From contig LT599018.1 in assembly GCA_900079685.1 (NCBI GenBank), forward strand, positions 1,262,970 to 1,326,969: 64,000 nt of DNA, given 5' to 3'. Under the pieces are notes generated by a model, which was not told where the DNA came from, made no database searches, and was given only the letters and a program-made list of their open reading frames with translations. Source of the stretch: an uncultured delta proteobacterium. GTDB lineage: Bacteria; Desulfobacterota; Desulfovibrionia; Desulfovibrionales; Desulfovibrionaceae. Position 1 is the stretch's first letter. Each line of letters starts with the position of its first letter. This document shows, in pieces, positions 7,961 through 24,096 of this stretch. Made by a program: the position numbers and the translations under genes.

Positions 7961-8074
7961 ATCCCCCCGGCCTATCGCAACAGCAGGCCGGTATTCCGGA
8001 TGTTTCCCGCCGCGGCGGGCGTTGCCCGGATGCGCGGCGCGCGATGTTTCACCTTTCCCTGCCAGGAGATCCGT

Positions 8075-9202
8075 ATGCAAAAACTGTTTGTCACCGCTGT
8101 CTTGACAGCCGTCCTTGTGTGCGCCGGCACCGCCTCGGCCGCCACCGTGAAAATTGGGCTCATGGCTCCCATCACCGGCGCGTTCGCCAGCGAAGGGCAG
8201 GATACGAAAAAAATCCTCGACCTCATGGTCGAAGAGGTGAACAAGTCCGGCGGCATCAACGGCGCGACCGTCGAGCTCATCGTGGAAGACGACGGCTCCA
8301 CCCCCCGCTCCGCGGCGACGGCGGCCAGCCGCCTGGTCGCGGCCAACGTCCCCGCCGTCATCGGCACCTACGGCTCCGCCGTGACGGAAGCCTCCCAGGA
8401 TATTTACGATGAGGCGGGCGTCGTGCAGATCGGCACGGGTTCCACCTCCATCCGCCTGACCGCCAAGGGGATGAAGCGCTTTTTCCGCACCTGCCCGCGC
8501 GACGACGAACAGGGCCGCGTGGGCGTTGCCACCCTGAAGCGGTTCGGCTACGCCAAGGTCGCCATCCTGCATGACAACTCCGCCTATGCCAAAGGACTGG
8601 CCGACGAAATCAAGCAGGGAATCGAAAAGGAAAAGAGCGCCACGATCCTGTTTTTCGACGCTCTCGTCCCCGGCGAGCGCGATTACTCCGCCATTTTGAC
8701 CAAGCTGAAAGGGCTGAACCCGGACGCCGTGTTCTTCACCGGCTATTATCCCGAAGCGGGCCTTCTTCTGCGCCAGATGGCGGAAATGAAGTGGTCCGTG
8801 CCCATGATCGGCGGCGACGCCACCAACAACACGGACCTGATCGCCATTGCCGGGGCGGCGGCCACGGGCTACCGCTTCATCTCGCCCCCCATGCCCGGCG
8901 ATATCGACAACGCGATGGCCAAGAGCTTTCTCGCGGCCTACCAGGCCAAGTACAACAGCCAGCCCAGTTCCATCTGGTCCGTGGCGGCGGGCGACGCCTT
9001 CAACGTGATCGTCGCGGCGATAAAGGCCAAAGGCGCGGATTCCGCCGCCATTGCCGACTATCTGCACAACGGCATGAAAGACGGGCTCGACAGCCTGACC
9101 GGCAAAATCGCCTTTGACGATAAAGGGGACCGTATCGGCGACCTGTACCGCCTCTACGAGGTAAGCGCTGACGGCCGCTTTGTGCTCCAGCCCAAACAAT
9201 AG
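8075..9202 (+). CDS. livK: Branched-chain amino acid ABC transporter substrate-binding protein
   Basis: 375 residues. Signal peptide MQKLFVTAVLTAVLVCAGTASA, then the periplasmic-binding fold type I opening VKIGLMAPITGAFASEGQD with GGINGATVELIVEDDGS, as in LivK/LivJ. The ATG at 8075 has AGGAG nearby and begins the signal peptide. It captures leucine, isoleucine or valine (or a related amino acid or amide) for the LivHMGF complex encoded immediately downstream. Family membership is clear, but some members bind other ligands such as aromatic compounds, so the substrate is inferred from the complete operon. Confidence 0.92.
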   Translation: MQKLFVTAVLTAVLVCAGTASAATVKIGLMAPITGAFASEGQDTKKILDLMVEEVNKSGGINGATVELIVEDDGSTPRSAATAASRLVAANVPAVIGTYGSAVTEASQDIYDEAGVVQIGTGSTSIRLTAKGMKRFFRTCPRDDEQGRVGVATLKRFGYAKVAILHDNSAYAKGLADEIKQGIEKEKSATILFFDALVPGERDYSAILTKLKGLNPDAVFFTGYYPEAGLLLRQMAEMKWSVPMIGGDATNNTDLIAIAGAAATGYRFISPPMPGDIDNAMAKSFLAAYQAKYNSQPSSIWSVAAGDAFNVIVAAIKAKGADSAAIADYLHNGMKDGLDSLTGKIAFDDKGDRIGDLYRLYEVSADGRFVLQPKQ

Positions 9203-9210
9203 ACAAACGG

Positions 9211-9239
9211 TCCGGGCCGGGCGCCATGCCCGGCCCGGA
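9211..9239 (+). terminator. Stem-loop between livK and livH
   Basis: Perfect 12-bp arms (9211-9222 and 9228-9239), 5-nt loop, no U-run. Position after the binding-protein gene and before the permease genes suggests partial termination or 3'-end protection of livK mRNA. Confidence 0.75.
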
Positions 9240-9259
9240 TGTTCCGACGACGGACCAGA

Positions 9260-10165
9260 ATGGAAGAATTTTTCAAACAATTGACCAACGGCCTGGCGGT
9301 CGGGGGCATTTACGCCCTGATCGCGCTCGGCTACACCATGGTGTACGGCATTCTGCGCCTGATAAACTTCGCCCATGGCGATCTGTTCACGCTCGGCGCA
9401 TACCTCGGCTTCACCCTGCTCGTCTCCCTGGGCCTGCAGGACGCCATGAGCGGGCTTGCCGTGGCCGGGGTTCTTATCGTCATGGCCATGGGGCTTGTCG
9501 CGCTTGTCGGGTATCTGCTCGAGCGCGTCGCCTACAGGCCGCTGCGGCGCTCCAACCGTCTGGCGGCCGTGGTTTCCGCCCTGGGGGCCTCCATTTTCTT
9601 TTCCAACGCCATCATGCTGGTCTGGGGCGCGCGGGTCAAAGTCTACCCCAGCGGTATCCTGCCCGACGCGACGGTTTCCATCCTCGGCGTGGACATCATG
9701 CTCACCCGGGTCGTCCTGTTCTGCTGCGCGGTGGTGCTGATGCTCCTGCTCTTCTGGTTCATCAACCGGACCCGCGTGGGCACGGCCATCCGGGCGGTGG
9801 CCATCGACCAGGACGCGGCCCGGCTCATGGGCATCAACGTGAACAACATCATCTCCCTGGTCTTCCTCATCGGCCCGGCCCTCGGCGGCGCGGCCGGGGT
9901 CATGGTGGGCCTGTATTACGGCCAGATCTCCCACGACATGGGGTTCGGCTTCGGTCTGAAGGCGTTTACGGCGGCCATTCTCGGCGGGATCGGGAACATT
10001 CCCGGCGCCATGCTGGGCGGCATTCTGCTCGGGGTCATCGAAGCCATGGGCGCGACATACATCTCCATGGCCTGGAAAGACGCCGTCGCCTTCGGCGTGC
10101 TGATCCTCATCCTTATCGTCCGGCCCACGGGCCTGCTCGGCGAGAGGGTCGCGGACAAGATATGA
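9260..10165 (+). CDS. livH: Branched-chain amino acid ABC transporter permease LivH
   Basis: 301 residues, about eight membrane helices. The N terminus EEFFKQLTNGLAVGGIYALIALGYTMVYGILRLINFAHGDL is the standard LivH signature. Near the C terminus GLKAFTAAILGGIGNIPGAMLGGILLGVIE contains the loop that contacts the ATPase. The ATG at 9260 is preferred because an upstream in-frame ATG (9239) lies within the hairpin after livK. Overlaps livM by ATGA. Forms the membrane pore with LivM. Confidence 0.95.
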   Translation: MEEFFKQLTNGLAVGGIYALIALGYTMVYGILRLINFAHGDLFTLGAYLGFTLLVSLGLQDAMSGLAVAGVLIVMAMGLVALVGYLLERVAYRPLRRSNRLAAVVSALGASIFFSNAIMLVWGARVKVYPSGILPDATVSILGVDIMLTRVVLFCCAVVLMLLLFWFINRTRVGTAIRAVAIDQDAARLMGINVNNIISLVFLIGPALGGAAGVMVGLYYGQISHDMGFGFGLKAFTAAILGGIGNIPGAMLGGILLGVIEAMGATYISMAWKDAVAFGVLILILIVRPTGLLGERVADKI

Positions 10166-11232
10166 ATGTCTCCGCGTTCAAAAACCGCCTTACCTTCCCG
10201 GTCTGCGCGGGGATATTCTTCGTTCTCATGGCGTTCGTTCCCACGGCGTTGTCCCTTTCCGGCGCGGCGAAAGAGGGCATAGCCCAACTCGACATGCTGA
10301 ACAAAATCGGCATCTACGCCATTCTCGCCTTGTCGCTCAACATCATTCTCGGGCACGCCGGTTTGTTCCACATGGGCCATGCCGTGTTTTTCGCCGTGGG
10401 CGCGTATGCCACGGCCATTCTGAACACCGTTTATGCCTGGCCCATTTTCGCCACCATGCCCGTGGCGGGCCTTCTTGCCGCCGTGTTCGCCCTGCTGGTG
10501 GCGCGGCCCATCATCCATCTGCGCGGCGACTATCTGCTGGTGGTCACCATCGGCATTGTGGAGATCGTCCGCATCGTCCTCGTGAACAACGTGCTCGGCC
10601 TGACCGGCGGATCAAACGGCATTTACGGCATCGCGCGGCCCGTTCTCTTCGGTCTGGTCCTGAAAACGCCGCAGTTGCAGTTTTACCTGATCTGGATTTT
10701 CGCGGCCCTGACCGTGGTCCTGTTCTACCTGCTGGAGCATTCCCGGTTCGGCAGGGCGCTCAACTATATCCGGTATGACGACGTCGCGGCTTCGGGCTGC
10801 GGCATCAACATCGCCCGGTACAAGCTGGCGGCCTTCATGCTGGGCGCGTTCTGGGCGGGCATGGCCGGTACCCTGTACGCGGCGAACATCCGCACCATCG
10901 AGCCGTCGGCCTTCAACTTTTACGAATCCGTCATCCTGTTCGCCATCGTCATCCTCGGCGGCAGCGGGAACATCGCCGGGGTCCTTCTGGGAGCGTTTCT
11001 CCTGGTGGGCTTGCAGGACGTGTTCCGGAGCTTTGAAAGCGCGCGCATGCTGGTCTTCGGCGCGGCCATGATGGTGATGATGATCTTCCGTCCGCAGGGG
11101 TTGCTCCCGCCCCGCCGCCGCCGCTACGACGTGGCCGCGCTGGTGGGCCGGTATCCCTCCGGCCTGGACGAGGGGTTCTCCCTCTCCGGGCGCAACGGCA
11201 AAAAACACGCGCGGGACGAGGGCGGGTCATGA
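10162..11232 (+). CDS. livM: Branched-chain amino acid ABC transporter permease LivM
   Basis: 356 residues starting at ATG 10162, which overlaps the livH stop (ATGA). Signatures: YAILALSLNIILGHAGLFHMGHAVFFAVGAY, LVNNVLGLTGGSNGIYGI and ILGGSGNIAGVLLGAFLL. The C-terminal tail is hydrophilic and basic (RRRRYDVAALVGRY...RNGKKHARDEGGS), somewhat longer than usual. Pairs with LivH; the next gene (livG) again overlaps by ATGA, so livHMGF is translationally coupled. Confidence 0.95.
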   Translation: MNVSAFKNRLTFPVCAGIFFVLMAFVPTALSLSGAAKEGIAQLDMLNKIGIYAILALSLNIILGHAGLFHMGHAVFFAVGAYATAILNTVYAWPIFATMPVAGLLAAVFALLVARPIIHLRGDYLLVVTIGIVEIVRIVLVNNVLGLTGGSNGIYGIARPVLFGLVLKTPQLQFYLIWIFAALTVVLFYLLEHSRFGRALNYIRYDDVAASGCGINIARYKLAAFMLGAFWAGMAGTLYAANIRTIEPSAFNFYESVILFAIVILGGSGNIAGVLLGAFLLVGLQDVFRSFESARMLVFGAAMMVMMIFRPQGLLPPRRRRYDVAALVGRYPSGLDEGFSLSGRNGKKHARDEGGS

Positions 11233-11990
11233 GCCTTTTGAGCGTGCATAATCTTTTCAAATCCTTCGGCGGCCTTGTGGCCGTGGCCGGGGTCAGCTTC
11301 GAGGTGGAGGAAAACGCCATCATGGGGCTCATCGGCCCCAACGGCGCGGGCAAAACCACGGTCTTCAACATCATCACCGGCAACCACAAACCGAACAAGG
11401 GCGAGGTCCTGTTCGACCGCATGGACATAACGGGCAAGCCGCCGCATGAAATCGTGTCCCTGGGCATCGCCCGGACCTTCCAGAACATCCGCCTGTTCCA
11501 GGACATGAGCGTGCTGGAGAACGTGCTGGCCGGGAACCACTGCCGCATGCGTTCCGGCCTGTTCAGCTCCATGTTCCACACGCCTTCCCAGCGGCGGGAC
11601 GAACAGCGGGCCGTGGTGCGCGCCATGCGCGAGCTCGCCTTCGTCGGCCTGGACGAGCAGCACGACACCCTGGCCGGAAACCTCTCCTACGGCAACCAGC
11701 GGCTCCTGGAAGTGGCCCGGGCGCTGGCTTCCAACCCGCGCTTTCTCATCCTGGACGAGCCCGCCGGCGGCATGAACGAGCAGGAAACAGCGGATCTCAT
11801 AACCCTGATCCGGTCCATCCAGAAACGGGGCATCACGGTCCTTTTGATCGAACACGACATGAACCTCGTCATGCGCGTCTGCCAGAAGCTGGTGGTCCTG
11901 GAATACGGCGCCGTGATCGCGGAAGGCCCGCCCGCCGCGATAAAAAGCAACCCGCAGGTCATCGAGGCGTACCTCGGCACGGATGAATGA
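11229..11990 (+). CDS. livG: Branched-chain amino acid ABC transporter ATPase LivG
   Basis: 253 residues. Walker A GPNGAGKTT, ABC signature LSYGNQRLLEVARALA, Walker B RFLILDEPAGGMN, and a switch histidine (LLIEHDM). The LSYG(N/Q)QR signature and long helical insertion (SVLENVLAGNHCRMRSG) are typical of LivG. It supplies ATP hydrolysis on the cytoplasmic face with LivF. Confidence 0.95.
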   Translation: MSLLSVHNLFKSFGGLVAVAGVSFEVEENAIMGLIGPNGAGKTTVFNIITGNHKPNKGEVLFDRMDITGKPPHEIVSLGIARTFQNIRLFQDMSVLENVLAGNHCRMRSGLFSSMFHTPSQRRDEQRAVVRAMRELAFVGLDEQHDTLAGNLSYGNQRLLEVARALASNPRFLILDEPAGGMNEQETADLITLIRSIQKRGITVLLIEHDMNLVMRVCQKLVVLEYGAVIAEGPPAAIKSNPQVIEAYLGTDE

Positions 11991-12715
11991 CCATGAACAC
12001 CCCGTATCTTGAATTGCGCGACCTGCGCGTCTGCCACGGCAAGGTTGAAGCCCTGCACGGCGTCACCGTGCGCGTGCGCAAAGGGGAGATCGTGGCCATT
12101 CTCGGGGCCAACGGCGCGGGCAAAACCACGACCCTGACCGCCATCAGCGGCCTCCTGAAGCCCAGCGGCGGCGGCATCTATTTTGAGGGCAACGCCCTGC
12201 ACACCCTGCCCAGCCATGAAATCGTGCGCCTGGGCATCACCCATTCCCCGGAAGGCAGACGCGTATTCGGCACCCTCACGGTTGCGGAAAACCTGGATCT
12301 TGGCGAATACACCCGCAAAAACCGCATCCGCTCCGCCGAAATACGGGACTGGATCTTCGACCTGTTCCCCCGCCTGGAGGAACGCCTTGACCAGCTCGCC
12401 GGGACGCTTTCCGGCGGCGAACAGCAGATGCTCGCCATCGCCCGCGCCCTGATGGGCGACCCCAAAGTGCTGCTGCTGGACGAGCCCTCCCTGGGGCTGG
12501 CCCCCATTCTCGTGCGCTCCATTTTCGCCTCGGTCCGGGAGATCAACGAACGCGGCGTCACCGTCATCCTGGTGGAACAAAACGCCAGGGCCGCGCTGAA
12601 GATCGCCTCACGCGGCTACGTGATGGAAGTGGGCAAAATCGTCATGGAAGATACGGCCGAAAACCTCCTTGCCAACCCGGATGTCCAAGCCGCCTACCTG
12701 GGCGGCGGCGCATAG
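11987..12715 (+). CDS. livF: Branched-chain amino acid ABC transporter ATPase LivF
   Basis: 242 residues, overlapping livG by ATGA; an ATG six bases further on is an equally possible start. Walker A GANGAGKTT, signature TLSGGEQQMLAIARALM, Walker B KVLLLDEPSLGLAP, switch His replaced by Gln as usual in LivF (LVEQNARAAL). Last gene of the liv operon. Confidence 0.95.
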   Translation: MTMNTPYLELRDLRVCHGKVEALHGVTVRVRKGEIVAILGANGAGKTTTLTAISGLLKPSGGGIYFEGNALHTLPSHEIVRLGITHSPEGRRVFGTLTVAENLDLGEYTRKNRIRSAEIRDWIFDLFPRLEERLDQLAGTLSGGEQQMLAIARALMGDPKVLLLDEPSLGLAPILVRSIFASVREINERGVTVILVEQNARAALKIASRGYVMEVGKIVMEDTAENLLANPDVQAAYLGGGA

Positions 12716-12834
12716 CGGCTTCCGCGCTGCCTTGCGGCGGAACGCTTTTGCGAATTTACAGAAAAAGAGTAAACGTTTCCAATCCATTTTTGAAAAACCC
12801 GTCTGCCTCAGGGTATTTTTCGCTGAAAATTATA

Positions 12835-12862
12835 TTGACACGCCTTCGCCTTCTCATATACA
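12835..12862 (+). promoter_or_regulatory. Strong sigma70-type promoter P1 of the TRAP/2-hydroxyacid operon
   Basis: A perfect -35 (TTGACA 12835-12840), 16-bp spacer and TATACA (12857-12862). Transcription would begin near 12869, so operator 1 (12874-12890) would sit right at the start site, a classic repression arrangement. Confidence 0.75.
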
Positions 12863-12873
12863 TTCCAAACTAC

Positions 12874-12890
12874 AATTGGTCAGACCGCAA
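12874..12890 (+). promoter_or_regulatory. FadR/GntR-type operator 1
   Basis: Left half AATTGGTC and core TGGTCAGACC (centre A12882) match the TGGT-N3-ACCA pattern known for FadR, PdhR and LldR; the right outer half is degenerate. Confidence 0.8.
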
Positions 12891-12931
12891 TAATGCGGCG
12901 GCACAGTCCTCTGTGTGATTGTGTACGCTAA

Positions 12932-12948
12932 AATTGGTCAGGCCAGTT
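12932..12948 (+). promoter_or_regulatory. FadR/GntR-type operator 2
   Basis: AATTGGTCAGGCCAGTT, centre A12940, one mismatch from the perfect copies at 13045 and 13103. It lies 58 bp downstream of operator 1. Confidence 0.85.
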
Positions 12949-13041
12949 AAACACGGCGTCATGCACGGCTTTGTACGCACGGGGACGTATCGGGTGAATC
13001 ATTGAAGAATTCCCCTACTGTTTCCCAATGATCCTTGCTTG

Positions 13042-13047
13042 TATAAT
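13042..13047 (+). promoter_or_regulatory. Possible second promoter P2 (-10 box)
   Basis: A perfect TATAAT overlaps the first bases of operator 3. The -35 position (13019-13024) is poor, so P2 is weaker or needs an activator. Confidence 0.4.
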
Positions 13048-13061
13048 TGGTCAGGCCAATT
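13045..13061 (+). promoter_or_regulatory. FadR/GntR-type operator 3
   Basis: AATTGGTCAGGCCAATT, a 17-bp palindrome around A13053 with only the central pairs imperfect. It overlaps the possible -10 box of P2. Confidence 0.88.
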
Positions 13062-13102
13062 CACCCAAGCACTTCGGTTGTTTTTCTGTACTCGCATGCA
13101 AA

Positions 13103-13119
13103 AATTGGTCAGGCCAATT
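13103..13119 (+). promoter_or_regulatory. FadR/GntR-type operator 4
   Basis: Exact copy of operator 3 (centre A13111), 58 bp downstream of it and 32 bp before the dctP start codon. Confidence 0.88.
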
Positions 13120-13150: not shown

Positions 13151-14125
13151 ATGAAAAAACGCGTTCTTTCACTGATCCTTTCCTTGTGTCTCGTGGCTTT
13201 CCTCGCGCCTTCCTCGTTCGCGAAAGCGTACAAAATGGGGCACATTTTTCAGCCCACCCATTCGATCAACGTAGCGCTTGAGCAATTTGCCAAAAATGTT
13301 AACGAAGCCACCAAAGGCGAAATCCAGTTCTCCATCCTGCACAGCTCCGTGTTGGGCGGCGACGTGGAAATGCTTTCCCAGCTCGTGATGGGTTCCCTTG
13401 ACGGCTGTGCGTTGGGCGGCATCGGCATTTTTGAAAACTTCACACCCAGCGCCGCCATTGACGAGGTTCCCTTCCTGTACCCCAACTCCGAGGCCGCGCA
13501 TAAAGCCCAAGACGGCAAGTTCGGCGCGCTCGTGGCCAAGACGATCATCGAACCGCAAAATCTTCAGTGCCTGGGCTATATGGAAAACGGTTTCCGCAAT
13601 TTCACCAACAACAAGCGCCCCGTTGTGAAGCCGGAAGACATGAAGGGCATCAAGTTCCGCAGCGCGCCCGTTCCCCTGCGCGTCAAAATGTTCCAGGTGC
13701 TCGGCGCGGACGCCGTGCCCATGTCCTTCGCCGAACTCTTTACCGCGCTGCAGCAGGGCACGGTTGACGGCCAGGAAAACCCCCTGCCCATGATCGAAGC
13801 GTCCAAGTTCTATGAAGTCCAGAAATATCTCAGCCTTTCCGGCCACATTTACACGACCGTCCCGTTGCTTATAAACAACCGGGTTTGGAACTCCTTTACC
13901 CCCGAACAGCAGAAGATCGTCAGGGAAGAAGCCCGCAAGGCCATAGAAAACCAGCGCAAAATGGCTGCCGAAGCGGAAGCCAAGCTCCGCACGGAACTTG
14001 CGCAAAAAGGCATGGTAGTTAACGAGATAGACAAGGAAGCTTTTATCAAAGCCGTTCAGCCTGTCTGGGAAGAATACATCAAGAAAAACGGCCGCGACCT
14101 CATCGACGCCGCTGTGAATCCCTAG
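13151..14125 (+). CDS. dctP: TRAP transporter solute-binding protein (DctP), second system
   Basis: 324 residues with a Sec signal peptide (MKKRVLSLILSLCLVAFLAPSSFAKA). DctP motifs include GEIQFSILHSSVLGGDVEMLSQLVMGSLDG, RNFTNNKRPVVKPEDMKGIKFRSA and GTVDGQENPLPMI. ATG 13151 has GGAG seven bases upstream. It is the first gene after a long leader with four FadR-type operators and heads dctP-dctQ-dctM plus three enzyme genes. The product is periplasmic and delivers a probable organic acid to DctQM; the enzymes downstream point to a 2-hydroxyacid, which remains an inference. Confidence 0.93.
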   Translation: MKKRVLSLILSLCLVAFLAPSSFAKAYKMGHIFQPTHSINVALEQFAKNVNEATKGEIQFSILHSSVLGGDVEMLSQLVMGSLDGCALGGIGIFENFTPSAAIDEVPFLYPNSEAAHKAQDGKFGALVAKTIIEPQNLQCLGYMENGFRNFTNNKRPVVKPEDMKGIKFRSAPVPLRVKMFQVLGADAVPMSFAELFTALQQGTVDGQENPLPMIEASKFYEVQKYLSLSGHIYTTVPLLINNRVWNSFTPEQQKIVREEARKAIENQRKMAAEAEAKLRTELAQKGMVVNEIDKEAFIKAVQPVWEEYIKKNGRDLIDAAVNP

Positions 14126-14136
14126 CGCGCACGTGT

Positions 14137-14205
14137 GAAGGCGCAACGATCGTCGTTCGCCTTCCGTCTTCGATGGCGCGCTCCGGCCGCGAACCGGAGC
14201 GCGCC
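14137..14205 (+). terminator. Two consecutive stem-loops between dctP and dctQ
   Basis: Hairpin one spans 14137-14164 (arms GAAGGCG/CGCCTTC continued by AACGA/TCGTT past a bulged C). Hairpin two spans 14175-14205 with perfect 12-bp arms and a 7-nt loop. There is no U-run. They probably set the ratio of binding protein to permease. Confidence 0.75.
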
Positions 14206-14277
14206 CGACAAAGGCAGAGGGCATGCGCGGCCGCGTTTGCCCGTCGACGGGCGACCTTTGGCAACAGGAGATACACA

Positions 14278-14778
14278 ATGGTTGATAAAGTGCTCGGCTC
14301 CTTGTCGCGGGGCATCGAATTTCTGTGCGCGATCTTTTTCGTGGTGATGGGCGCAAGCCTGACATTACAGATATTTTCGCGCTACTGCATGGACCAGTCT
14401 GTCTTTTGGGCCGAGGAAATGGCCCGCTACTCAATGGTCTGGCTGGTCTATCTCGGCGTTGTGGTGGCCGCGAGCGAACGCGCCCATACGCGTATTGAAT
14501 TTTTTGTCGGCCTCTTCCCCACGGGCGTCTATAAGGCCATCAAAGTGCTGGTCAATATCGCCTGCCTGCTGTTCCTGGGCGGCATCACCTATCACTCCGT
14601 GAACCTCATGAAGCTCGGCATGATGATGAAATCGTCGGGCATGCAGATATACATGATATACGTGTACGTGGCCCTCCCCGTGGGCGCGGTGCTGACATCC
14701 GTGTATCTGGTCTGGGAAATTTTCTACATTCTTAAAAAGGGAAAAGACCAGACGGTCACCGAGGAGTTTGAAGTATGA
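14278..14778 (+). CDS. dctQ: TRAP transporter small permease subunit (DctQ), second system
   Basis: 166 residues, four membrane helices, with the DctQ motif FWAEEMARYSMVWLVYLGVVVAASERAHTRIEF. The ATG at 14278 is preceded by AGGAG. Overlaps dctM by ATGA. Forms the membrane domain with DctM. Confidence 0.93.
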   Translation: MVDKVLGSLSRGIEFLCAIFFVVMGASLTLQIFSRYCMDQSVFWAEEMARYSMVWLVYLGVVVAASERAHTRIEFFVGLFPTGVYKAIKVLVNIACLLFLGGITYHSVNLMKLGMMMKSSGMQIYMIYVYVALPVGAVLTSVYLVWEIFYILKKGKDQTVTEEFEV

Positions 14779-16049
14779 TAGCGCTCCTCTTCATCACCCT
14801 CGGCGTCGGGCTGTTTTTCTCGGTTCCGGTCAGCTTTGCCATCGGCATCAGCGCGTATGTCTTCCTGGTCGGCTCCGACGCCGCGCCTTTGTCCATCATC
14901 CCCCAACGCATGATTGAAGGGGTGGACAACTTCTCCATCATGGCATTGCCCCTCTTCATCCTTTCGGGCGAGCTCATGTCGCTGAGCTGCACGCCCCGCC
15001 TCATGCGGCTGGCGAACCTCCTCATCGGCCGCGTGCCCGGCGGCCTTGCCGCCACGACGGCCATCGGCTGCGGGTTTTTCGGCGCCATTTCCGGCTCGGG
15101 CGTGGCGACCACGGCCGCCATCGGCGGCGTTATGGCGCCTGAAATGATAAAGGCGAAGTACTCTCCCGGCTTCACCGCTTCCGTGGTGACCGCCGCCGGC
15201 GTGCTCGGCATGGTCATCCCGCCCAGTTTCTGCATGGTCGTCTACGGCGCCTCGGGCGGCGTTTCCATCGCCAAACTGTTCCTGGGCGGCTTTATCCCCG
15301 GCTTTCTGGCCATAGGCAGCCTTGTGGCCTACTCCATTTTCATGGGGTCCCGCCGGGGCTATAGGGCGGCGGAATATACCTACCAGCCGGGAGAAAAAAT
15401 CAAAATTTTCTTCGACGCCCTGCTGCCGCTGGTCATGCCTGTCATTATCCTGGGCGGCGTGCTCTCCGGGCTTGTCACGCCAACGGAATCCGCCATGGTG
15501 GCCGTGCTTTACGCCCTGGGGCTTGAAGTGCTGGTATACAGGGAAATCACCCTCCGCAAGTTCATCCACCTGTGCAGCCGGAGCGCGGTTTCCAGCGCCA
15601 TCATCATGTTCATCATGGGAACGGCCGCCTCTTTCGGCTGGATCATGGCCACGGAAAACGTGCCCAAGCTTTTCGCCGGCATCATCCTGAGCATCACCAA
15701 CTCGCCGCTTATCGTCTACTTCCTTATCATGATGCTGCTCCTCATCCTGGGCACCTTCATGGAAAGCGTCTCCATCATCATCCTGGTGACGCCCATCCTG
15801 CTGCCGCTCGTCGTCTCCTTCGGCATGGACCCGGTGCATTTCGGCGTCGCCCTTATGCTGGCGGTCGCCATCGGGGGGGTGACGCCGCCGCTGGCCGTGG
15901 GACTTTTCGTCGCGACGCGCATCATCGGCTGCCGCGTGGAAGACAGCTTCCCGGAAATCCTGCACGTGATCGCGATTCTGATCGTCAACCTGGCCCTGTG
16001 CTTCTTCGTGCCGAAGATAGTCCTGTTCCTGCCGCAGTTTTTGAACTAG
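14775..16049 (+). CDS. dctM: TRAP transporter large permease subunit (DctM), second system
   Basis: 424 residues with typical DctM motifs: NFSIMALPLFILSGELMS, FGAISGSGVATTAAIGGVM, AAGVLGMVIPPSFCMVVYG and GGVTPPLAVGLFVATRI. Starts within the dctQ stop (ATGA), so the two are translationally coupled. Sodium-coupled inner-membrane carrier subunit. The enzyme gene 30 bp downstream is on the same strand and probably in the same transcript. Confidence 0.95.
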   Translation: MIALLFITLGVGLFFSVPVSFAIGISAYVFLVGSDAAPLSIIPQRMIEGVDNFSIMALPLFILSGELMSLSCTPRLMRLANLLIGRVPGGLAATTAIGCGFFGAISGSGVATTAAIGGVMAPEMIKAKYSPGFTASVVTAAGVLGMVIPPSFCMVVYGASGGVSIAKLFLGGFIPGFLAIGSLVAYSIFMGSRRGYRAAEYTYQPGEKIKIFFDALLPLVMPVIILGGVLSGLVTPTESAMVAVLYALGLEVLVYREITLRKFIHLCSRSAVSSAIIMFIMGTAASFGWIMATENVPKLFAGIILSITNSPLIVYFLIMMLLLILGTFMESVSIIILVTPILLPLVVSFGMDPVHFGVALMLAVAIGGVTPPLAVGLFVATRIIGCRVEDSFPEILHVIAILIVNLALCFFVPKIVLFLPQFLN

Positions 16050-16079
16050 CCCCGTGCCGGATATGACAGGAGTAATACC

Positions 16080-17414
16080 ATGAAGCAGTTACCCCCTCTA
16101 CGAGAACTCATTACAGCGACGCTGCCGTCGTTTGAAAAAATCTGCGGCGACATTCAATTGCCGCGCATGCGCAAGGCGCGCCAGCACTTTTCCCCGGATT
16201 CCGCCGGCGATGTGGCGGCGGCGACCAGGAAGGCGCTGGAGACATCCGGCTGCCTCGCCAGCGTGAAGCCCGGCGCCAGAATAGCCCTGTGCGTCGGCAG
16301 CCGGGGCCTGGCCTCGCTTGCCGATCTGGTGGCGGCCACGGTTGCCGCCATCCGCGCCGCCGGGGGCGAGCCGTTTATCGTTCCCTCCATGGGCAGCCAC
16401 GGCGGGGCCACCGCCGAAGGCCAAACCGAGCTGCTGGCGGCTCTGGGCGTGACGGAAAACACCTGCGGCGCGCCCGTTGTCAGCTCCATGGAAACCGCCG
16501 TCATCGGCGAAACCCGCGTCATGGTGAACGGGACGGAAGTGACGTTCCCCATGTACCTGGACAAGCAAGCCCTGGATGCGGACGGCATCGTGCCGATCAA
16601 CCGCATCAAACCGCACACCGCCTACCGGGGCGCCATCGAAAGCGGCCTTTGCAAAATGCTGGCGATCGGCCTCGGCAAGCATGAAGGCGCCATGAGCTAT
16701 CACCGCTACGGGTTCGGCATCTTCCCCGAGGTCGTGCCGGCGGTGGCAAAGGCCATCATTGAAAAAACGCCGGTGCTGTTCGGCGTGGCCTCCATTGAAA
16801 ACGCCTTCCACCAGGTGGCGGAAGTTGAAGCAATACCCGCCGGGAGCATCCTGGAGCGGGAACCGGCCCTCCTCAAACGCGCGTTCGCGCTGATGGGCAG
16901 GCTTTACTTCGACAACCTGGACGTGCTCATCATCGACGAAGTCGGCAAAGACCACAGCGGCGACGGCATGGACCCGAACATCACCGGGAGTTTTTCAACC
17001 CCTTACGGCGGCAAGGGGCTTGAGGCCGCCACCCGGCTGGTTCTCGGGGTTTCCGAAGGCAGCCACGGCAACTTCGTCGGCCTGGGCCTTGCGGATATCA
17101 CCACGATCCACGCCTTTGACCAGTCCGATCCCCTGCCGACCTACACCAACTGCCTGACCTGCCGCCTGCTGAAACAAGCGAAAATTCCCATGGTTACGCC
17201 GAATGAAAAAATCGCGTTCCAGGCGGCCGTATTCCACTCCATTCTGCCGACGGCCGGTAACCCGCGCATGGTGCGCATACGGAACACCGGCGATATAGCG
17301 GAAATTGAAATTTCCGAGGCGCTGTGGGCGGAAGCGGAACGCCATCCGCAGGTAACCCTGGCCGGGGAGCCGTTTTCCTACGCCTTTGACGGCACGGGCA
17401 GGCTTATCCGGTAA
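16080..17414 (+). CDS. LarA-like protein (lactate racemase/DUF2088 superfamily)
   Basis: 444 residues. It has GSRGLASL, then MGSHGGATAEGQ, then INRIKPHTAYRGAIESGLCKM and GKHEGA. In order and spacing His107, His179, Lys192 and His201 correspond to the catalytic and nickel-pincer residues of Lactobacillus plantarum LarA (His108, His174, Lys184, His200), judged by eye from memory. LarA homologues racemise or epimerise 2-hydroxyacids using a nickel-pincer nucleotide; the genes for making that cofactor (larB, larC, larE) are not in this window. The protein lies between a TRAP transporter and a D-2-hydroxyacid dehydrogenase, so interconversion of a 2-hydroxyacid before oxidation is a reasonable inference. 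Its C-terminal half is longer than a minimal LarA_N domain. The start ATG 16080 follows GGAG. Confidence 0.75.
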   Translation: MKQLPPLRELITATLPSFEKICGDIQLPRMRKARQHFSPDSAGDVAAATRKALETSGCLASVKPGARIALCVGSRGLASLADLVAATVAAIRAAGGEPFIVPSMGSHGGATAEGQTELLAALGVTENTCGAPVVSSMETAVIGETRVMVNGTEVTFPMYLDKQALDADGIVPINRIKPHTAYRGAIESGLCKMLAIGLGKHEGAMSYHRYGFGIFPEVVPAVAKAIIEKTPVLFGVASIENAFHQVAEVEAIPAGSILEREPALLKRAFALMGRLYFDNLDVLIIDEVGKDHSGDGMDPNITGSFSTPYGGKGLEAATRLVLGVSEGSHGNFVGLGLADITTIHAFDQSDPLPTYTNCLTCRLLKQAKIPMVTPNEKIAFQAAVFHSILPTAGNPRMVRIRNTGDIAEIEISEALWAEAERHPQVTLAGEPFSYAFDGTGRLIR

Positions 17415-17487: not shown

Positions 17488-18459
17488 ATGGCACAAAAAA
17501 TTGTAATGACCGATCTGGGAGGCTTTCCTGACTTTGCCATCGAACAGGGCATCGCCAAGGAAAAAGGGTATGACTTCGTCTGCCTGAAAACGAACAAGGA
17601 AGACGAGATCATCGCGGGCGCGAAGGACGCGGACGGACTTATCGTGGTGTACGCGCAGATCACGGAAAAGATCATCAACGCGCTGCCCAAATGCAAGATC
17701 ATCGTCCGCACGGGCATCGGCTACAACAACATCGACATTGAAGCCGCGTCCAAAAAAGGCATCATGGTCGCCAACGTGCCCGATTACTGCCAGGGCGAGG
17801 TTGCGGACCACACCATGGCCCTGCTCCTGACCTTGGTGCGCAAGGTCGCCTTCCTGAACAACCAGGTCAAGAAAAAGAACTGGTCCTTCATTGAAGCCAA
17901 GCCCATCCCGCGGCTGGCCGAAACGACTCTCGGCCTGTACGGCTGCGGCAGTATCGCCCAGGCCGTCGCCAAACGCGCGCAGGCGTTCGGCATCGCGGTC
18001 CAGGGTTTTGACCCCTACCTGCCGGACGACGCGTTCGCCAAGCTGAACATCAAAAAAGTCGACGCGGACACGCTTTTCGCCACGTCCGACTTCCTTTCCC
18101 TGCATGCTCCGCTGACGCCGGAAACCCAGCATATCGTCAACATGGCCACCCTGAAAAAAATGAAAAAGACCGCCGTCATCGTGAACACCGCCCGCGGCCC
18201 CCTGGTCAACGCGGACGACGTCTACAAGGCGCTGAAAGAAGGCATCATCGCGGGCGCCGGACTGGACGTTCTGGAAACCGAACCCCCGGCCTTCCCTCTG
18301 AACCTTTCCGAACTGGAAAACGCCATCGTGACCCCGCACGCGGCCTATTATTCCGACTCCTCCGAGCCGGAGTTGCGCCAGAAGGCCACGCTGGAAGTCA
18401 TCCGCACCTTGAGCGAAGGCAAGCCCAAGTTCTGGCTGAACAAAAAGGCTTTTTCCTGA
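17488..18459 (+). CDS. D-isomer-specific 2-hydroxyacid dehydrogenase (CtBP-like)
   Basis: 323 residues. The NAD-binding motif YGCGSIAQAVAKRA sits after residue 150, and the catalytic trio is visible: Arg in VNTARGPLV, Glu in GLDVLETEPP, His in IVTPHAAYYS. The His-Ala-Ala-Tyr-Tyr-Ser ending is typical of C-terminal-binding-protein-type dehydrogenases (glyoxylate or phosphoglycerate dehydrogenase relatives). It would interconvert a 2-ketoacid and a D-2-hydroxyacid with NAD(H). It follows the LarA-like gene by 73 bp, which fits a two-step racemise-then-oxidise route for the imported compound. The substrate side chain is unknown. Confidence 0.88.
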   Translation: MAQKIVMTDLGGFPDFAIEQGIAKEKGYDFVCLKTNKEDEIIAGAKDADGLIVVYAQITEKIINALPKCKIIVRTGIGYNNIDIEAASKKGIMVANVPDYCQGEVADHTMALLLTLVRKVAFLNNQVKKKNWSFIEAKPIPRLAETTLGLYGCGSIAQAVAKRAQAFGIAVQGFDPYLPDDAFAKLNIKKVDADTLFATSDFLSLHAPLTPETQHIVNMATLKKMKKTAVIVNTARGPLVNADDVYKALKEGIIAGAGLDVLETEPPAFPLNLSELENAIVTPHAAYYSDSSEPELRQKATLEVIRTLSEGKPKFWLNKKAFS

Positions 18460-18562: not shown

Positions 18563-19801
18563 ATGACCAAGTTTACCGATTCCAAAACCCCGTGGAAATC
18601 CGACAAGTGGTACACCAGCCCCTGGAACTTCGCGCCCGAAGTGCGTTCCCAGATGAGCTTTTCCAAAAACATCCAGTTCCATGACGTCACCCTGCGCGAC
18701 GGCGAACAGCAGGCCGGTTTGGTATTCAACAAAGACCAGAAGATCGCGCTGGCGGAAAAGCTGGCGGAGGTTGGCATCCAGCGCATCGAAGCCGGTATGC
18801 CCGCCGTGTCCCCCCAGGACGCCGAAGCCATCATCGAAATCAACAAGCGCAACCTCGGGCCGAAAATCTTCACCTTCGCCCGCTGCATGAAGGAAGACGT
18901 CCAGCGCTCCGTTGACTGCGGCGTAAAAAACGTGGTCATGGAAGTGCCCTGCAGCCGCCACCTGGTCGAATACGCTTACAAATGGAGCTTCGAGCAGGCC
19001 ATTGAAAAATCCATTGAATCCACCCTGTACGCCCGCGACAACGGCATGTACGTGTCCTTCTTCACCATCGACGGCACCCGCGCGGACATCGACGACTACA
19101 TGAGCATGGTCAAAGCCATCGCCAAAGACGGCCACATGGACGAACTCACCATCGTGGACACCTTCGGCGGCCTCAACCCCCATGCGGTTCCCTACCTGGT
19201 GAAACGGGTCAAGGAAGAAATCAAGAAGCCGCTCGGCATCCACGTGCATGACGACTACGGCATGGGCAGCGCGCTCACCATCATGGCGCTGGCTTCCGGC
19301 GTCGACATCGCGCACACCTCCATCTCCGCCTGCGGCGAACGCGCGGGCAACGCCAGCTATGAAGACGTGGCGCTCGGCCTGCTCACCCTGTACGGCGTGG
19401 ACACCGACCTCAAGTATGAAAAGATCTACCCCCTGGCCAAGTTCTTCCGTGAAGTGTCCGGCCTGCAGGTCCGCCAGAGCCGCGGCATCGTCGGCCCGGA
19501 CATCAACAAGATCGAATCCGGCATCGTGGCCGCCTGGTACAAGAACGTGGAAGGCATCGCCCCGCTCGAACTTTCGCCCTACCTGTATTCCCTGACCGGG
19601 CACCCGGACGCGGAAGTGGTGATCGGCAAAATGAGCGGCATCCCCACCATTGAAATCTATCTGGACAAGCTCGGCCTCAAGGCGAAGGACGAAGACCAGA
19701 AGATGGAAATCGTCATGAAGGTCAAGGAAAAATCCCTTACCAAGCTGGGCCTGTTGAACCTCGGCGAGTTCGAGGAAATCGCCCGCAAGATTATCGGGTA
19801 A
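18563..19801 (+). CDS. DRE-TIM metallolyase (homocitrate/isopropylmalate synthase or HMG-CoA lyase family)
   Basis: 412 residues. The catalytic and metal-binding DRE motif HDVTLRDGEQQAGL is near residue 40, the HxH metal pair appears as HVHDDYGMG, and the conserved GERAGNAS loop follows. These place it in the HMGL-like TIM-barrel family. No LeuA regulatory domain is visible, so it is closer to homocitrate synthase, citramalate synthase or lyase types than to feedback-controlled LeuA. The N-terminal 35 residues (KTPWKSDKWYTSPWNFAPE) are an unusual tryptophan-rich leader. It ends the first half of the island and could condense or cleave the 2-ketoacid made by the preceding dehydrogenase; this is an inference from gene order. 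Confidence 0.82.
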   Translation: MTKFTDSKTPWKSDKWYTSPWNFAPEVRSQMSFSKNIQFHDVTLRDGEQQAGLVFNKDQKIALAEKLAEVGIQRIEAGMPAVSPQDAEAIIEINKRNLGPKIFTFARCMKEDVQRSVDCGVKNVVMEVPCSRHLVEYAYKWSFEQAIEKSIESTLYARDNGMYVSFFTIDGTRADIDDYMSMVKAIAKDGHMDELTIVDTFGGLNPHAVPYLVKRVKEEIKKPLGIHVHDDYGMGSALTIMALASGVDIAHTSISACGERAGNASYEDVALGLLTLYGVDTDLKYEKIYPLAKFFREVSGLQVRQSRGIVGPDINKIESGIVAAWYKNVEGIAPLELSPYLYSLTGHPDAEVVIGKMSGIPTIEIYLDKLGLKAKDEDQKMEIVMKVKEKSLTKLGLLNLGEFEEIARKIIG

Positions 19802-19859: not shown

Positions 19860-19961
19860 CAGCGGGAAGAACCGGCTTTCAAGACTTTTATTATTGGTTT
19901 ATCATTCCGGTAAAAGTTGCCTTGGCCCGTTCGGTATACCCTCCATCTCACGGATAGTGTT

Positions 19962-20663
19962 ATGACTGTTCCCGATATAGTTTTTGAAAAAGTCTGCGCC
20001 CTTATTGCTGACGGGACGTTGCAAAAAGGAGAACGCCTGCCGGCGGAACGGAAACTCGCGGAATTGCTCGGCGTGAGCAGGCCTTCCATCCGGGAAGCCA
20101 TCCGCACGCTCGAGACGCTCGGCATGATAATCACGCGCGTCGGCAGCGGCAGCTACCTCACCGACGATGTGGCTTCGTTTTCCAAATACTTTCTGCTCCG
20201 GCAGACATCAAAGCGGTACAGGTTTCTGGAAGTGCTTGAGTCCCGCAGGGTTCTGGAGTGTGAAATCGCGTATCTGGCGGCCCAGCGGGTCACCCAGTCG
20301 GATATCACCGTTCTGACAAAGATCCTGGAGAACATGTCGGCGACGGACGATCCCCAGCTGTTTTCCAAAAAGGACTTCGCCTTTCACGAAGCCATCGCGC
20401 TGACCACGAACAACCTTTTCCTGCTGGAAATGTTGAAAACCGTCAGAGAACTCATGGTTGACGTCAACATACGGGAAGTCATCACCCGGCCCGGGCAAAG
20501 GGAGATCGCCATGGAGCACCACTGGCGGATCTACAAAGCCATTTGCGCGGAGGATCCCGAGCTGGCGAAGCACGAAATGCTGCGGCATATCGACAACGTC
20601 ATTCAAGGGACGCCTTCCGCTTTCACGGGCGATACCGGCACGCAACGCGAACAAGGAACGTGA
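19962..20663 (+). CDS. GntR-family transcriptional regulator, FadR/FCD subfamily
   Basis: 233 residues: winged-helix (KGERLPAERKLAELLGVSRPSIREAIRTLETLGMI, about residues 24-60) then an FCD helical domain with ESRRVLECEIAYLAA, FHEAIALTTNNLFLLEML and HHWRIYKAICAEDPELAKHEM, whose spaced Asp/His residues usually bind a metal and an acid ligand. ATG 19962 was chosen over an upstream in-frame ATG because the winged helix begins near it. Its gene sits between the two TRAP operons and two bases before the DsrE gene. It is the best candidate to bind the four FadR-type operators at 12.87-13.12 kb, and a half-site (ATTGGT 19893-19898) lies upstream of its own start. Confidence 0.92.
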   Translation: MTVPDIVFEKVCALIADGTLQKGERLPAERKLAELLGVSRPSIREAIRTLETLGMIITRVGSGSYLTDDVASFSKYFLLRQTSKRYRFLEVLESRRVLECEIAYLAAQRVTQSDITVLTKILENMSATDDPQLFSKKDFAFHEAIALTTNNLFLLEMLKTVRELMVDVNIREVITRPGQREIAMEHHWRIYKAICAEDPELAKHEMLRHIDNVIQGTPSAFTGDTGTQREQGT

Positions 20664-21013: not shown

Positions 21014-21156
21014 CGCGGATAGACGTGTCCGGAGAAAACGTTTATCCCGGGAATAGAGGTGAAAGATGCGCCCGGAGCGCGGCCCGCAACTCTGTAGCGC
21101 GCTCCGCCCATTCACGGCCATCCGGCCTACATCGTATAACGTTAGGAGAGAGGACC

Positions 21157-22176
21157 ATGAAACGACTGACCCTATTGATCGCAGCTGTTTGCCTTTGCCT
21201 CCTGGCCGCTCCCGCCGGCAACGCCGAAGCGGCCAAAAAAATCACCATCAAAGCCGCCCACAACGGCAACCTGCAACCCGACGACGCCCAGAACATGGGT
21301 TTTGACGTCTTCAAAAAAATGGTCGAGGAAAAAAGCAAGGGCGAAATCCAGGTACAGCTGTACCCGGCCGCCCAGCTCGGCGACGCTCGTACCATCGTCG
21401 AAGGCGTGCAGATGGGCACCATCGAACTCGGCGACGTTGAAAACGGGCCCATGGGCCGGTTCGTCCCCGAAGCCATGCTGTGGGACCTGCCGTATATCTT
21501 CCGCAACATCGAGCACGTCCACGCCGTGCTTGACGGCCCGCTGGGCAAGGAAGTGCAGGATCTGTACCTGAAGGTCGGCATCCGCCACCTCGGCTACAAC
21601 GACGGCGGCTTCCGTAACTTCACCAACTCCAAACGCCCCATCAAGAGCGCGGCCGATATGGCCGGCCTGAAAATCCGCGTCATGGAAAGCGAAGTCATGA
21701 TAAGCACCATCAACGCCTTCGGCGCCTCCGCCATTCCCATGGCGTTCGGCGAACTGTATTCCGCCCTGCAGCAGGGCGTGGTCGACGGCCAGGAAAACCC
21801 GATGAACCTGATCGAAAGCCAGCGGTTCTATGAAGTGCAGAAATACCTCTCCCAGACCGAGCACTTCTATTATCCCCGCCAGTACATCATCTCCGAAAAG
21901 TTCTGGAAGAAGCTCTCCCCCGAACACCAGAAGATCGTGGCCGAAGCGGCCAAAGCCGGCTGCGCCCAGCAGCGCACCCGCATCGCCCAGCAAAACGAGG
22001 AAATGCTCAAGCAGCTGATAAAGCTCGGCATGGAAACGACCCTGGCGAAGGATATCGACAAGGAATCCTTCGCGAAACTCGCCCGCGAAAGCGTGTATCC
22101 CAAGTTCTACGCCAAGATCGGCGGCACGGAAGAACGCGGCAAGGCGCTCATCCAGCGCATCATTGACACCAAGTAG
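21157..22176 (+). CDS. dctP: TRAP transporter solute-binding protein (DctP), third system
   Basis: 339 residues with a Sec signal peptide (MKRLTLLIAAVCLCLLAAPAGNAEA). DctP features: KGEIQVQLYPAAQLGDARTIVEGVQMG, RNFTNSKRPIKSAADMAGLKIRVME (ligand-binding Arg) and QQGVVDGQENPMNLI. It is clearly a paralogue of the 13.1-kb DctP but diverged, so a different or broader ligand is likely. ATG 21157 has AGGAG at a good distance. First gene of the third TRAP operon, following DsrE by 143 bp. Confidence 0.93.
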   Translation: MKRLTLLIAAVCLCLLAAPAGNAEAAKKITIKAAHNGNLQPDDAQNMGFDVFKKMVEEKSKGEIQVQLYPAAQLGDARTIVEGVQMGTIELGDVENGPMGRFVPEAMLWDLPYIFRNIEHVHAVLDGPLGKEVQDLYLKVGIRHLGYNDGGFRNFTNSKRPIKSAADMAGLKIRVMESEVMISTINAFGASAIPMAFGELYSALQQGVVDGQENPMNLIESQRFYEVQKYLSQTEHFYYPRQYIISEKFWKKLSPEHQKIVAEAAKAGCAQQRTRIAQQNEEMLKQLIKLGMETTLAKDIDKESFAKLARESVYPKFYAKIGGTEERGKALIQRIIDTK

Positions 22177-22185
22177 CATTGTCCC

Positions 22186-22214
22186 GGGCCGGGGAATGGT
22201 TCATTCCCCGGCCC
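22186..22214 (+). terminator. Stem-loop between dctP and dctQ
   Basis: Perfect 13-bp arms (22186-22198 and 22202-22214) and a 3-nt loop, no U-run. Same position and form as the hairpins after the other binding-protein genes. Confidence 0.8.
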
Positions 22215-22319
22215 CGCACGCACGCCGCTATCCAGTTACCGGTTTTTCGCGACGCTCCGCCATAATCGCCCCGGGTGAGTATTTTGCCTTTTGAGTGGCG
22301 GTAAAAAAAGAGGAACGAT

Positions 22320-22820
22320 ATGTCTCAACAAAAAGAATCGTTACTTTACAAAGTGATGAAAGTTTTTGTCGCCGGGATGATGATGCTGATTACCGCGCTC
22401 ACCTTTTATCAGATAGTTCTGCGTTACGGCTTCAACAAAGCCCCGTCCTGGAGCGAGGAGCTGGTACGCTTCGTTTTTGTCTGGCTGACCTTTCTTGCCG
22501 CCGGCATGGGAGTGCGCGAGCGCATCCACATCGGCATCGACGTCGTGGTCAACATGCTGCCCCAATCGCTGCAGAAAGCGGCTGGCGTTGCCGTGGCCCT
22601 CATCATTGTGGCCTTCGGCGCCTTCCTCCTTATTACCGGCATGGAGATCACGGAAGGAACGCATTTGCAGGCCTCCCCGGCGCTCGGGCTGCCCATGAGC
22701 TACGTCTACGCCGCCATACCGTTCATGGGCGTTTTGATGATTTGCTTCGGGCTGAACAACATCCGTCTGATATTTAAAGGCGGCGACAACGCGCCGACCA
22801 TGGAAGTAGGGGAGGGTTGA
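22320..22820 (+). CDS. dctQ: TRAP transporter small permease subunit (DctQ), third system
   Basis: 166 residues, four membrane helices, DctQ motif PSWSEELVRFVFVWLTFLAAGMGVRERIHIGIDVVV. GAGGAACGAT precedes ATG 22320. It ends one base before dctM. Confidence 0.93.
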   Translation: MSQQKESLLYKVMKVFVAGMMMLITALTFYQIVLRYGFNKAPSWSEELVRFVFVWLTFLAAGMGVRERIHIGIDVVVNMLPQSLQKAAGVAVALIIVAFGAFLLITGMEITEGTHLQASPALGLPMSYVYAAIPFMGVLMICFGLNNIRLIFKGGDNAPTMEVGEG

Positions 22821-22821
22821 T

Positions 22822-24096
22822 ATGATCCAGGCTCTGTTCACTACCCTCATTATCTGCTTCGTGCTGAACGTGCCCATCGGGTTCTCGCTCGGCGTGGCCT
22901 CCGTCGCCTGCGTTCTGGCCGGAGATCTGCCGAACATCGTCATCGCGCAGCGCATGGTCGCCGGGGTGAACTCCTTTCCCCTGCTCGCCATTCCCTTCTT
23001 CATGCTGGCCGGGGCCATCATGGAAACCGGCGGCGTGTCGCGCCGGATCGTGGAACTGGCCAATACCATCGTCGGCCACATCAGGGGCGGGCTCGCGGCG
23101 GTTTCCATCCTCGCCTGCACGTTCTTCGCCGCCATTTCCGGCTCCACGCCCGCGACGGCGGCGGCGGTCGGCAGCCTGACCATCCCGGAAATGGCCGACC
23201 GCGGGTACGACAAGGTATACGCCTCCGCGGTTGTCGCCTCGTCCGCCTGTCTCGGCGTCATTATCCCGCCGAGCATCACCATGATTATTTTCGGCGTGGT
23301 GGCCAACGTTTCCATCGGCAAGCTGCTGATCGGCGGCATCATCCCCGGCTGCGTGCTGTCGGCCATGCTCCTGGTGACCAACTACTTTTACTCCTGCAAG
23401 TACGGTTTCCCCACGGGCGACAAGCACTCCTGGAAAGAGCGCATCAAGGCCTTCACCGACGCCGTCTGGGGCATCATGATGCCCGTCATCATTCTCGGCG
23501 GGATCATGACCGGCGTGTTCACGCCTACGGAATCGGCGGCTGTCGCCGTGGTGTACGGGTTGATCGTCAGTTTCTTCATCTACAGGGAAATGACGCTGAA
23601 AGACCTTATCCCCACATTCTACAAGGCCTCCTTGAGTTCAGCCATGATTATGCTGCTGATCGGCGCGGCGAGCCCCTTCGGCTGGCTGATGACCATTCTG
23701 CAGGTTCCCCAGGATGCCTCGGCGGCCATGCTGGGCCTAACCTCAAACAAGGAAATGCTCTACTTCCTCATGCTGGTCTGCTACCTGATTCTCGGGACCT
23801 TCATGGAAACCGGCGCGATCATTCTGCTGGTGGTGCCCATTTTCGCGCCCATCGCGCAGCATGTGGGCATCGACCTGATCCAGTTCGGCGTTGTGACGGT
23901 CATATCGCTCGCCATCGGCATGGCAACGCCCCCGGTGGGCATTTCGCTCTTTGCCGTCTGCGGGATCAGCAAAATCTCGATCGCCCAGCTCACGGTCAAG
24001 GTGCTGCCGTTCCTTGCCACGCTGATTCTCGGCATGTTCCTGCTGGCGTATATTCCCCAGTTGACCCTGTTCCTGCCGAATCTGCTCATGAACTAA
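22822..24096 (+). CDS. dctM: TRAP transporter large permease subunit (DctM), third system
   Basis: 424 residues with the full DctM set: NSFPLLAIPFFMLAGAIMETGGV, FAAISGSTPATAAAVGSLTIPEM, CLGVIIPPSITMIIFG and GMATPPVGISLFAVCGI. It ends one base-pair step before a GC-rich hairpin and is followed by a C45 hydrolase gene on the same strand. Inner-membrane sodium-coupled carrier. Confidence 0.95.
   Translation: MIQALFTTLIICFVLNVPIGFSLGVASVACVLAGDLPNIVIAQRMVAGVNSFPLLAIPFFMLAGAIMETGGVSRRIVELANTIVGHIRGGLAAVSILACTFFAAISGSTPATAAAVGSLTIPEMADRGYDKVYASAVVASSACLGVIIPPSITMIIFGVVANVSIGKLLIGGIIPGCVLSAMLLVTNYFYSCKYGFPTGDKHSWKERIKAFTDAVWGIMMPVIILGGIMTGVFTPTESAAVAVVYGLIVSFFIYREMTLKDLIPTFYKASLSSAMIMLLIGAASPFGWLMTILQVPQDASAAMLGLTSNKEMLYFLMLVCYLILGTFMETGAIILLVVPIFAPIAQHVGIDLIQFGVVTVISLAIGMATPPVGISLFAVCGISKISIAQLTVKVLPFLATLILGMFLLAYIPQLTLFLPNLLMN

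Follow-up and report, generated by a model that had tools for sequence, protein, structure and literature searches.

The window analysed here, a 64,000-nucleotide stretch of DNA from an uncultured member of the Desulfovibrionaceae, carries four FadR-type operators (O1 to O4) in the leader of a TRAP transporter operon. They form part of a small predicted regulon that has comparative support in related genomes; the special geometry of the array, in contrast, fails the comparison with those relatives. What the sequences themselves show is the four sites, the fact that orthologous leaders also contain more than one, a common position of O1 and the co-occurrence of arrays with one regulator. The GntR/FCD protein P0001, encoded in the same gene run (19962-20663, plus strand), very probably binds all four operators. 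The explanation favoured here, which we consider rather probable as a whole, is that P0001 would act as a repressor of the PdhR/LldR kind, blocking transcription at O1, reinforced at O2-O4 and acting on a second operon as well. Taken together, the array resembles a conventional switch supplied with additional operators.

Operators, predicted promoter and gene run

All four sites are 17 bp long and lie on the plus strand. O1 (12874-12890, centre 12882; AATTGGTCAGACCGCAA) was read from the sequence and a core pattern, and a mismatch search recovered O2 (12932-12948, centre 12940; AATTGGTCAGGCCAGTT), O3 (13045-13061, centre 13053; AATTGGTCAGGCCAATT) and O4 (13103-13119, centre 13111), which has the same letters as O3. 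Their number, their centres and the spacings of 58, 113 and 58 bp agree with the original prediction and are far above chance. A search of the window allowing up to 3 mismatches returned five matches, corresponding to three sites, two of them found on both strands; the shuffle mean for the same search was 0.15, and none of 100 shuffles reached five. O1 differs from that query at five positions, and is hence outside the five matches; it retains the left half and GACC of the right half. To describe O1 as a near copy is therefore generous.

Each of the four window sites contains TTGGT-CAG-(A/G)CC. Their right half is imperfect, its box reading GCCA in O2-O4 and ACCG in O1. The sites show the TKGT and ACMA boxes of FadR-subfamily (GntR/FCD) operators, in which 2-3 nt separate GT from AC, and this upholds the earlier assignment to the FadR type, and they differ from the LldR box AAnTGGTCnGACCAnTT by 1-3 mismatches. 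Of the 12 sites in the window and related leaders, 10 have A at their centre on the transcript strand, and the two sites of G345, a genome of another genus, have T; site orientation is therefore not essential.

The genome-wide search suggested with the original prediction was informative in one form of the pattern. The tight core TTGGTMAGRCCR, itself written from the window sites, has 10 matches in the 4.0-Mb genome versus 3 for the reversed control, and six of the ten sit in two leaders: the four window sites and two in one other leader. The remaining four lie within open frames of at least 251 codons, at a local GC of 0.56-0.71, and are taken as chance occurrences; the open-frame test alone does not separate chance matches, as a 258-codon frame on the other strand likewise covers both sites of the second leader. 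A looser site pattern was no commoner in the whole genome than its control (35 versus 61), so that only the tight form is informative.

A promoter scan of the leader predicted a -35 hexamer TTGACA (12835-12840, plus strand), with ATATTGAC common to all four leaders compared, and a -10 hexamer TACATT (12859-12864, plus strand) behind an 18-bp spacer, together agreeing at 10 of 12 consensus positions. The same scan also gives a 9/12 site at 12790-12819 (plus strand) and a 10/12 site at 12857-12829 (minus strand), and promoter-like sites number four in the window leader versus 0.6 in shuffles. Transcription would start near 12871, placing O1 at about +3 to +19 if the promoter prediction is right, with O2-O4 further down in what would be the transcribed leader. 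The distance from the initial T of a -35-like TTGAC to the beginning of the first site is 37-39 bp in each of the four leaders; for the promoter of the glycyl-radical enzyme described below, an off-consensus -35 or a 15-bp spacer has to be allowed.

Upstream of the promoter lies the palindrome AGTAAACGTTTCC (12768-12780, plus strand), which we take to be of the LacI type and which is conserved in the orthologous leader of G001, a genome of the same genus. When the two leaders are aligned, this LacI-like word, the promoter, O1 and O2 stand out as islands, and the rest has diverged. Near copies of the palindrome also occur in three stretches around LarA-like paralogs (C1:1181705, C2:159091 and C2:103515), and elsewhere in the genome there is an exact copy at C2:585655 and a near copy at C2:322036; with 2 mismatches the pattern was no commoner than its control (58 versus 81).

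The leader is preceded by an ABC transporter operon of the branched-chain amino acid type (8000-12715) and followed by a run of genes on the plus strand. The first encodes the TRAP solute-binding protein DctP (13151-14125), and behind it come the small permease DctQ (14173-14778), the large permease DctM (14775-16049) and a LarA-like nickel-pincer-cofactor isomerase of group 22 (16080-17414; 473 bits, cut-off 400). A D-isomer 2-hydroxyacid dehydrogenase follows (17488-18459), which is the first gene behind the array in both related genomes, and then an HMGL-like enzyme resembling isopropylmalate and homocitrate synthases (18563-19801), P0001 itself, a second DctP/DctQ/DctM set (21025-24096, as 21025-22176, 22320-22820 and 22822-24096) and an AAT-family enzyme, acyl-transferase or amidase-like (24151-25224), whose counterparts in G001 and G345 likewise lie close to the regulator.

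The DctPQM-LarA block (13151-17414) stands between array and dehydrogenase, a place from which it is absent in G001 and G345; the difference could be either an insertion or losses. A LarA-like query returned eight matches in its own genome, namely itself, five further near-full-length copies (38-45% identical) and a split one in two fragments; among 58 other genomes, 18 gave one match and one gave two. Of seven 20-kb stretches of this genome, the six around other LarA-like genes contained no LldR-box match at up to 2 mismatches, and a coarse intergenic scan of the same six yielded one single FadR-like word and no array.

The candidate regulator and its occurrence with the arrays

P0001 contains GntR and FCD domains; its domain and model scores were obtained on a longer reading, 19917-20660. 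Its best model matches are LldR, GlcC and PdhR, all below the equivalog cut-offs. It scores 142.2 bits on the LldR equivalog NF007741 (cut-off 311), 115.3 bits on the PdhR equivalog NF007001 (cut-off 330), and 37.6 of 249.2 and 40.9 of 189 bits on the fatty-acid FadR equivalogs TIGR02812 and NF003444. The best PDB sequence match is 9jpj_C, a pyruvate dehydrogenase complex repressor, and the stretch VSRPS-(I/L)-REAI is common to P0001 and chain 5kvr_A, another pyruvate dehydrogenase complex repressor, which we take to be the E. coli protein. In the G345 ortholog the recognition helix reads VSRSSIREGI and is thus not fully kept. The FCD residues D138, H142, H187 and H209, presumably metal-binding, are invariant in the three orthologs.

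A peptide-pattern scan of genome contigs located an ortholog with 71% identity in the metagenome-assembled genome Deltaproteobacteria U_126738 (G213). This was the one locus returned; G345 did not appear and may not be in that collection. G213 and G001, the only same-genus genome listed, are taken as one genome because their sites have the same contig coordinates. One of the four G213 matches was set aside because it lies inside an open frame that is oxidoreductase-like by our reading. The orthologous G001 leader is flanked by the same ABC operon, whose LivF is 89.6% identical, and by the dehydrogenase, which is 88% identical, and it holds three good sites and one weak one (GATCGGTCAGGCCAAAA), with centre spacings of 51, 28 and 56 bp. 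Gene order suggests that the G001 contig with the dehydrogenase adjoins the one carrying the HMGL-like gene and the regulator.

A search for paired sites in 288 genomes of the family, covering gaps of 30-60 bases between 11-base cores, returned six genomes: the window's own, G001, G345 and three that were set aside. In these last, the pair lay inside a 584-aa open frame (G179), in 12-bp tandem repeats (G112) or in a 41-bp direct repeat (G281). The G281 repeat, from another genus (L099 1497-1554; G281:C65:32667-32718), includes a FadR-like box and resembles a repeat element more than a leader. G345 has two sites 51 bp apart at the head of a dehydrogenase-HMGL-DctPQM operon, and close to that operon lie an AAT gene and a P0001 ortholog (64-65% identical). 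The regulator is outside the operon, and no site within 3 mismatches of the box was found in front of its gene. Among seven genomes of its genus, only G345 shows the promoter-plus-site pattern.

When the same 288 genomes were searched with P0001 (E <= 1e-30), 18 had matches: its own genome, G001 (72%), G345 (65%) and a further 15 whose best proteins are 34-39% identical. Three of the 288 family genomes, its own included, thus have P0001 or an ortholog with no less than 64% identity. These are exactly the genomes in which arrays were found, and in all three the arrays precede the same dehydrogenase/HMGL gene set, which links a GntR and FCD regulator to the FadR-subfamily sites. The nominal chance of this co-occurrence is 5e-6, but two of the three genomes had been known in advance; if G345 alone is counted, the figure becomes about 4 in 286. 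Evenly drawn samples of 199 genomes of the order (E 1e-40) and 395 of the phylum (E 1e-50) contained no ortholog besides P0001 itself, which says little on rare orthologs because these samples cannot have contained G001 or G345, which would match. No published description of this regulon was found among open-licence papers.

The second leader in the window's genome has two sites, at G000:C1:2984195 and 2984331, 136 bp apart, and precedes genes for a glycyl-radical enzyme and its activase together with a further TRAP set. This operon, too, would be under P0001 control. The enzyme passes the PFL2-3 subfamily cut-off and none of the listed equivalog cut-offs; the gene (L051 4421-6886), accompanied by the activase and TRAP genes, falls below those for HpsG, CutC, HypD and PFL. 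A LacI-type gene is divergent to it.

Proposed mode of action and the meaning of the spacing

A dimeric GntR/FCD repressor of the PdhR/LldR kind is expected to bind the four sites. Ligand-free P0001 on O1 would cover the first transcribed bases and block the TTGACA/TACATT promoter; an operator over the transcription start implies repression by blocking initiation or escape, and repression at O1 is likely, given the predicted promoter. Judging from the regulator's relatives and the dehydrogenase, the probable ligand is a 2-hydroxy or 2-oxo acid on which products of the operon act. The sites O2-O4, in the transcribed leader, may reinforce repression by raising the local repressor concentration and by serving as roadblocks to polymerase that escapes O1, and could do so without fixed spacing or helical phase. 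This combination of avidity and roadblock is favoured because several sites are kept and their spacing is not, and we hold it tentatively, at slightly below even chances. A more specific version, held a little more tentatively still, envisages a hitherto undescribed PdhR/LldR-like regulon with no operator before the transcription start: one would be fixed at the start and one to three would drift downstream as a multi-step roadblock, so that number and not spacing sets the strength of repression. Such a regulon would link the TRAP/LarA/hydroxyacid operon to the glycyl-radical-enzyme operon.

The spacing itself does not bear out the function first proposed for it, namely that 58-113-58 bp places partners on opposite DNA faces and suggests cooperative or looping control rather than a single roadblock. 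Centre spacings are 58, 113 and 58 bp in the window, 51, 28 and 56 bp in G001, 51 bp in G345 and 136 bp in the second leader, and the eight consecutive spacings show no detectable helical phase (Rayleigh R = 0.40; p about 0.27 at 10.5 bp per turn and 0.18 at 10.6), a sample in which a weak preference could be missed. Neither spacing nor phase is thus conserved among the four leaders, and for this reason the symmetry and the opposite faces look incidental. What stands of that proposal is the presence of more than one site, which the relatives keep; cooperativity or looping deduced from geometry does not.

Bridging of operator pairs by a tetrameric repressor, with looping of the leader, is nevertheless the rival that survives best, and we regard it as unlikely. 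Multiple sites could equally serve loops, and some spacings are near whole turns (51, 135 and 136 bp); the 58-bp pairs, however, lie at 5.5 turns, a half-turn at short spacing that would work against looping between partners, and the spacings vary between leaders with no phase preference. Since every site falls beyond the predicted start, the promoter would stay outside any loop, in contrast to the layout at E. coli lldP. Precedents for looping exist in the FCD-domain relative Atu1419, which is tetrameric and loops sites 190 bp apart (PMC7797058), and in E. coli LldR, described second-hand in PMC5412874 as bridging O1 and O2.

The symmetry may also have a historical origin, compatible with the repressor explanation, in which O3-O4 arose as a segmental duplication of O1-O2. 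Equal outer gaps would favour this, having a probability of about 0.006 with the inner sites random in the same span, by a test devised after seeing the data; in register the two spacers agree at 17 of 41 positions (p 0.016 by shuffling), as do 24 of 60 in the flank upstream (p 0.018). Yet when the spacers are aligned locally, 233 of 1000 shuffles score as well, and the 60 bp downstream agree at only 13 of 60 positions. This resemblance is slight and the test was post hoc; we consider a duplication improbable.

Slightly less probable again is the binding of the sites by another FCD protein. The genome holds 22 FCD matches, and FadR-subfamily regulators share similar boxes (PMC4494728); but it is P0001 that lies in the gene run, and it or its orthologs track the arrays in three of three genomes. 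Both regulators originally named as candidates were considered: co-occurrence and synteny support 19962-20663, and no supporting evidence was found for the product of 415-1197, which matches the loci compared in the two related genomes at only 26-28% identity, over the P0001 orthologs. A role of the repeats at the RNA level, with stems formed by O1 and O2 and by O3 and O4, is scarcely credible. The window leader beats dinucleotide shuffles with just these stems (z about -3.1, 0 of 200 as good), but its transcript folds well because palindromic repeats complement each other. Shuffling everything except the operators left no further structure in the four leaders: z was -1.2 in the window, where 23 of 200 shuffles did as well, +1.4 in G001, 0.0 in the second leader and +0.8 in G345. 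Full shuffles left the other three leaders unremarkable (z -0.6, 0.05 and -0.7), and the one Rfam match at E up to 1 scored 20.4 of 90 bits, far under the gathering score.

The repressor explanation centred on P0001 provides a testable regulator-operator pair and the prediction of a two-operon regulon for LarA-like group 22, HMGL-like and glycyl-radical enzymes. The leaders offer a natural series of 2, 2, 3-4 and 4 sites, in which it may be asked whether downstream operators add repression without fixed spacing. They also illustrate how a conspicuous regularity of spacing, seen in a single genome, may have no function.

Comparison with known systems

One of the closest known systems is E. coli PdhR, with the box AATTGGTnnnACCAATT (PMC7660256). 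The window sites share its sequence and 3-bp centre, with one right-half base changed (A to G) in three of the four, and P0001 has its recognition-helix stretch in common with 5kvr_A; unlike PdhR, it reaches 115 of 330 bits on that model and stands among a different gene set. E. coli LldR, as described in PMC10272880, has the box AAnTGGTCnGACCAnTT with two boxes per target region. It is alike in its 17-bp box, in having more than one site per regulatory region and in the link to 2-hydroxy acids, and differs in that P0001 scores 142 of 311 bits and in that four sites rather than two are found here, all downstream of the predicted start.

Two further systems share features of arrangement. Atu1419 is likewise an FCD regulator with widely spaced palindromes, but its box ATGTATACAT differs (PMC7797058), and the spacings of the present leaders are not conserved. 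In E. coli NanR, several dimers of a GntR-type repressor likewise assemble on one regulatory region; its operator is a (GGTATA)3-repeat (PMC8012715), in contrast to the separated palindromes of the present array.
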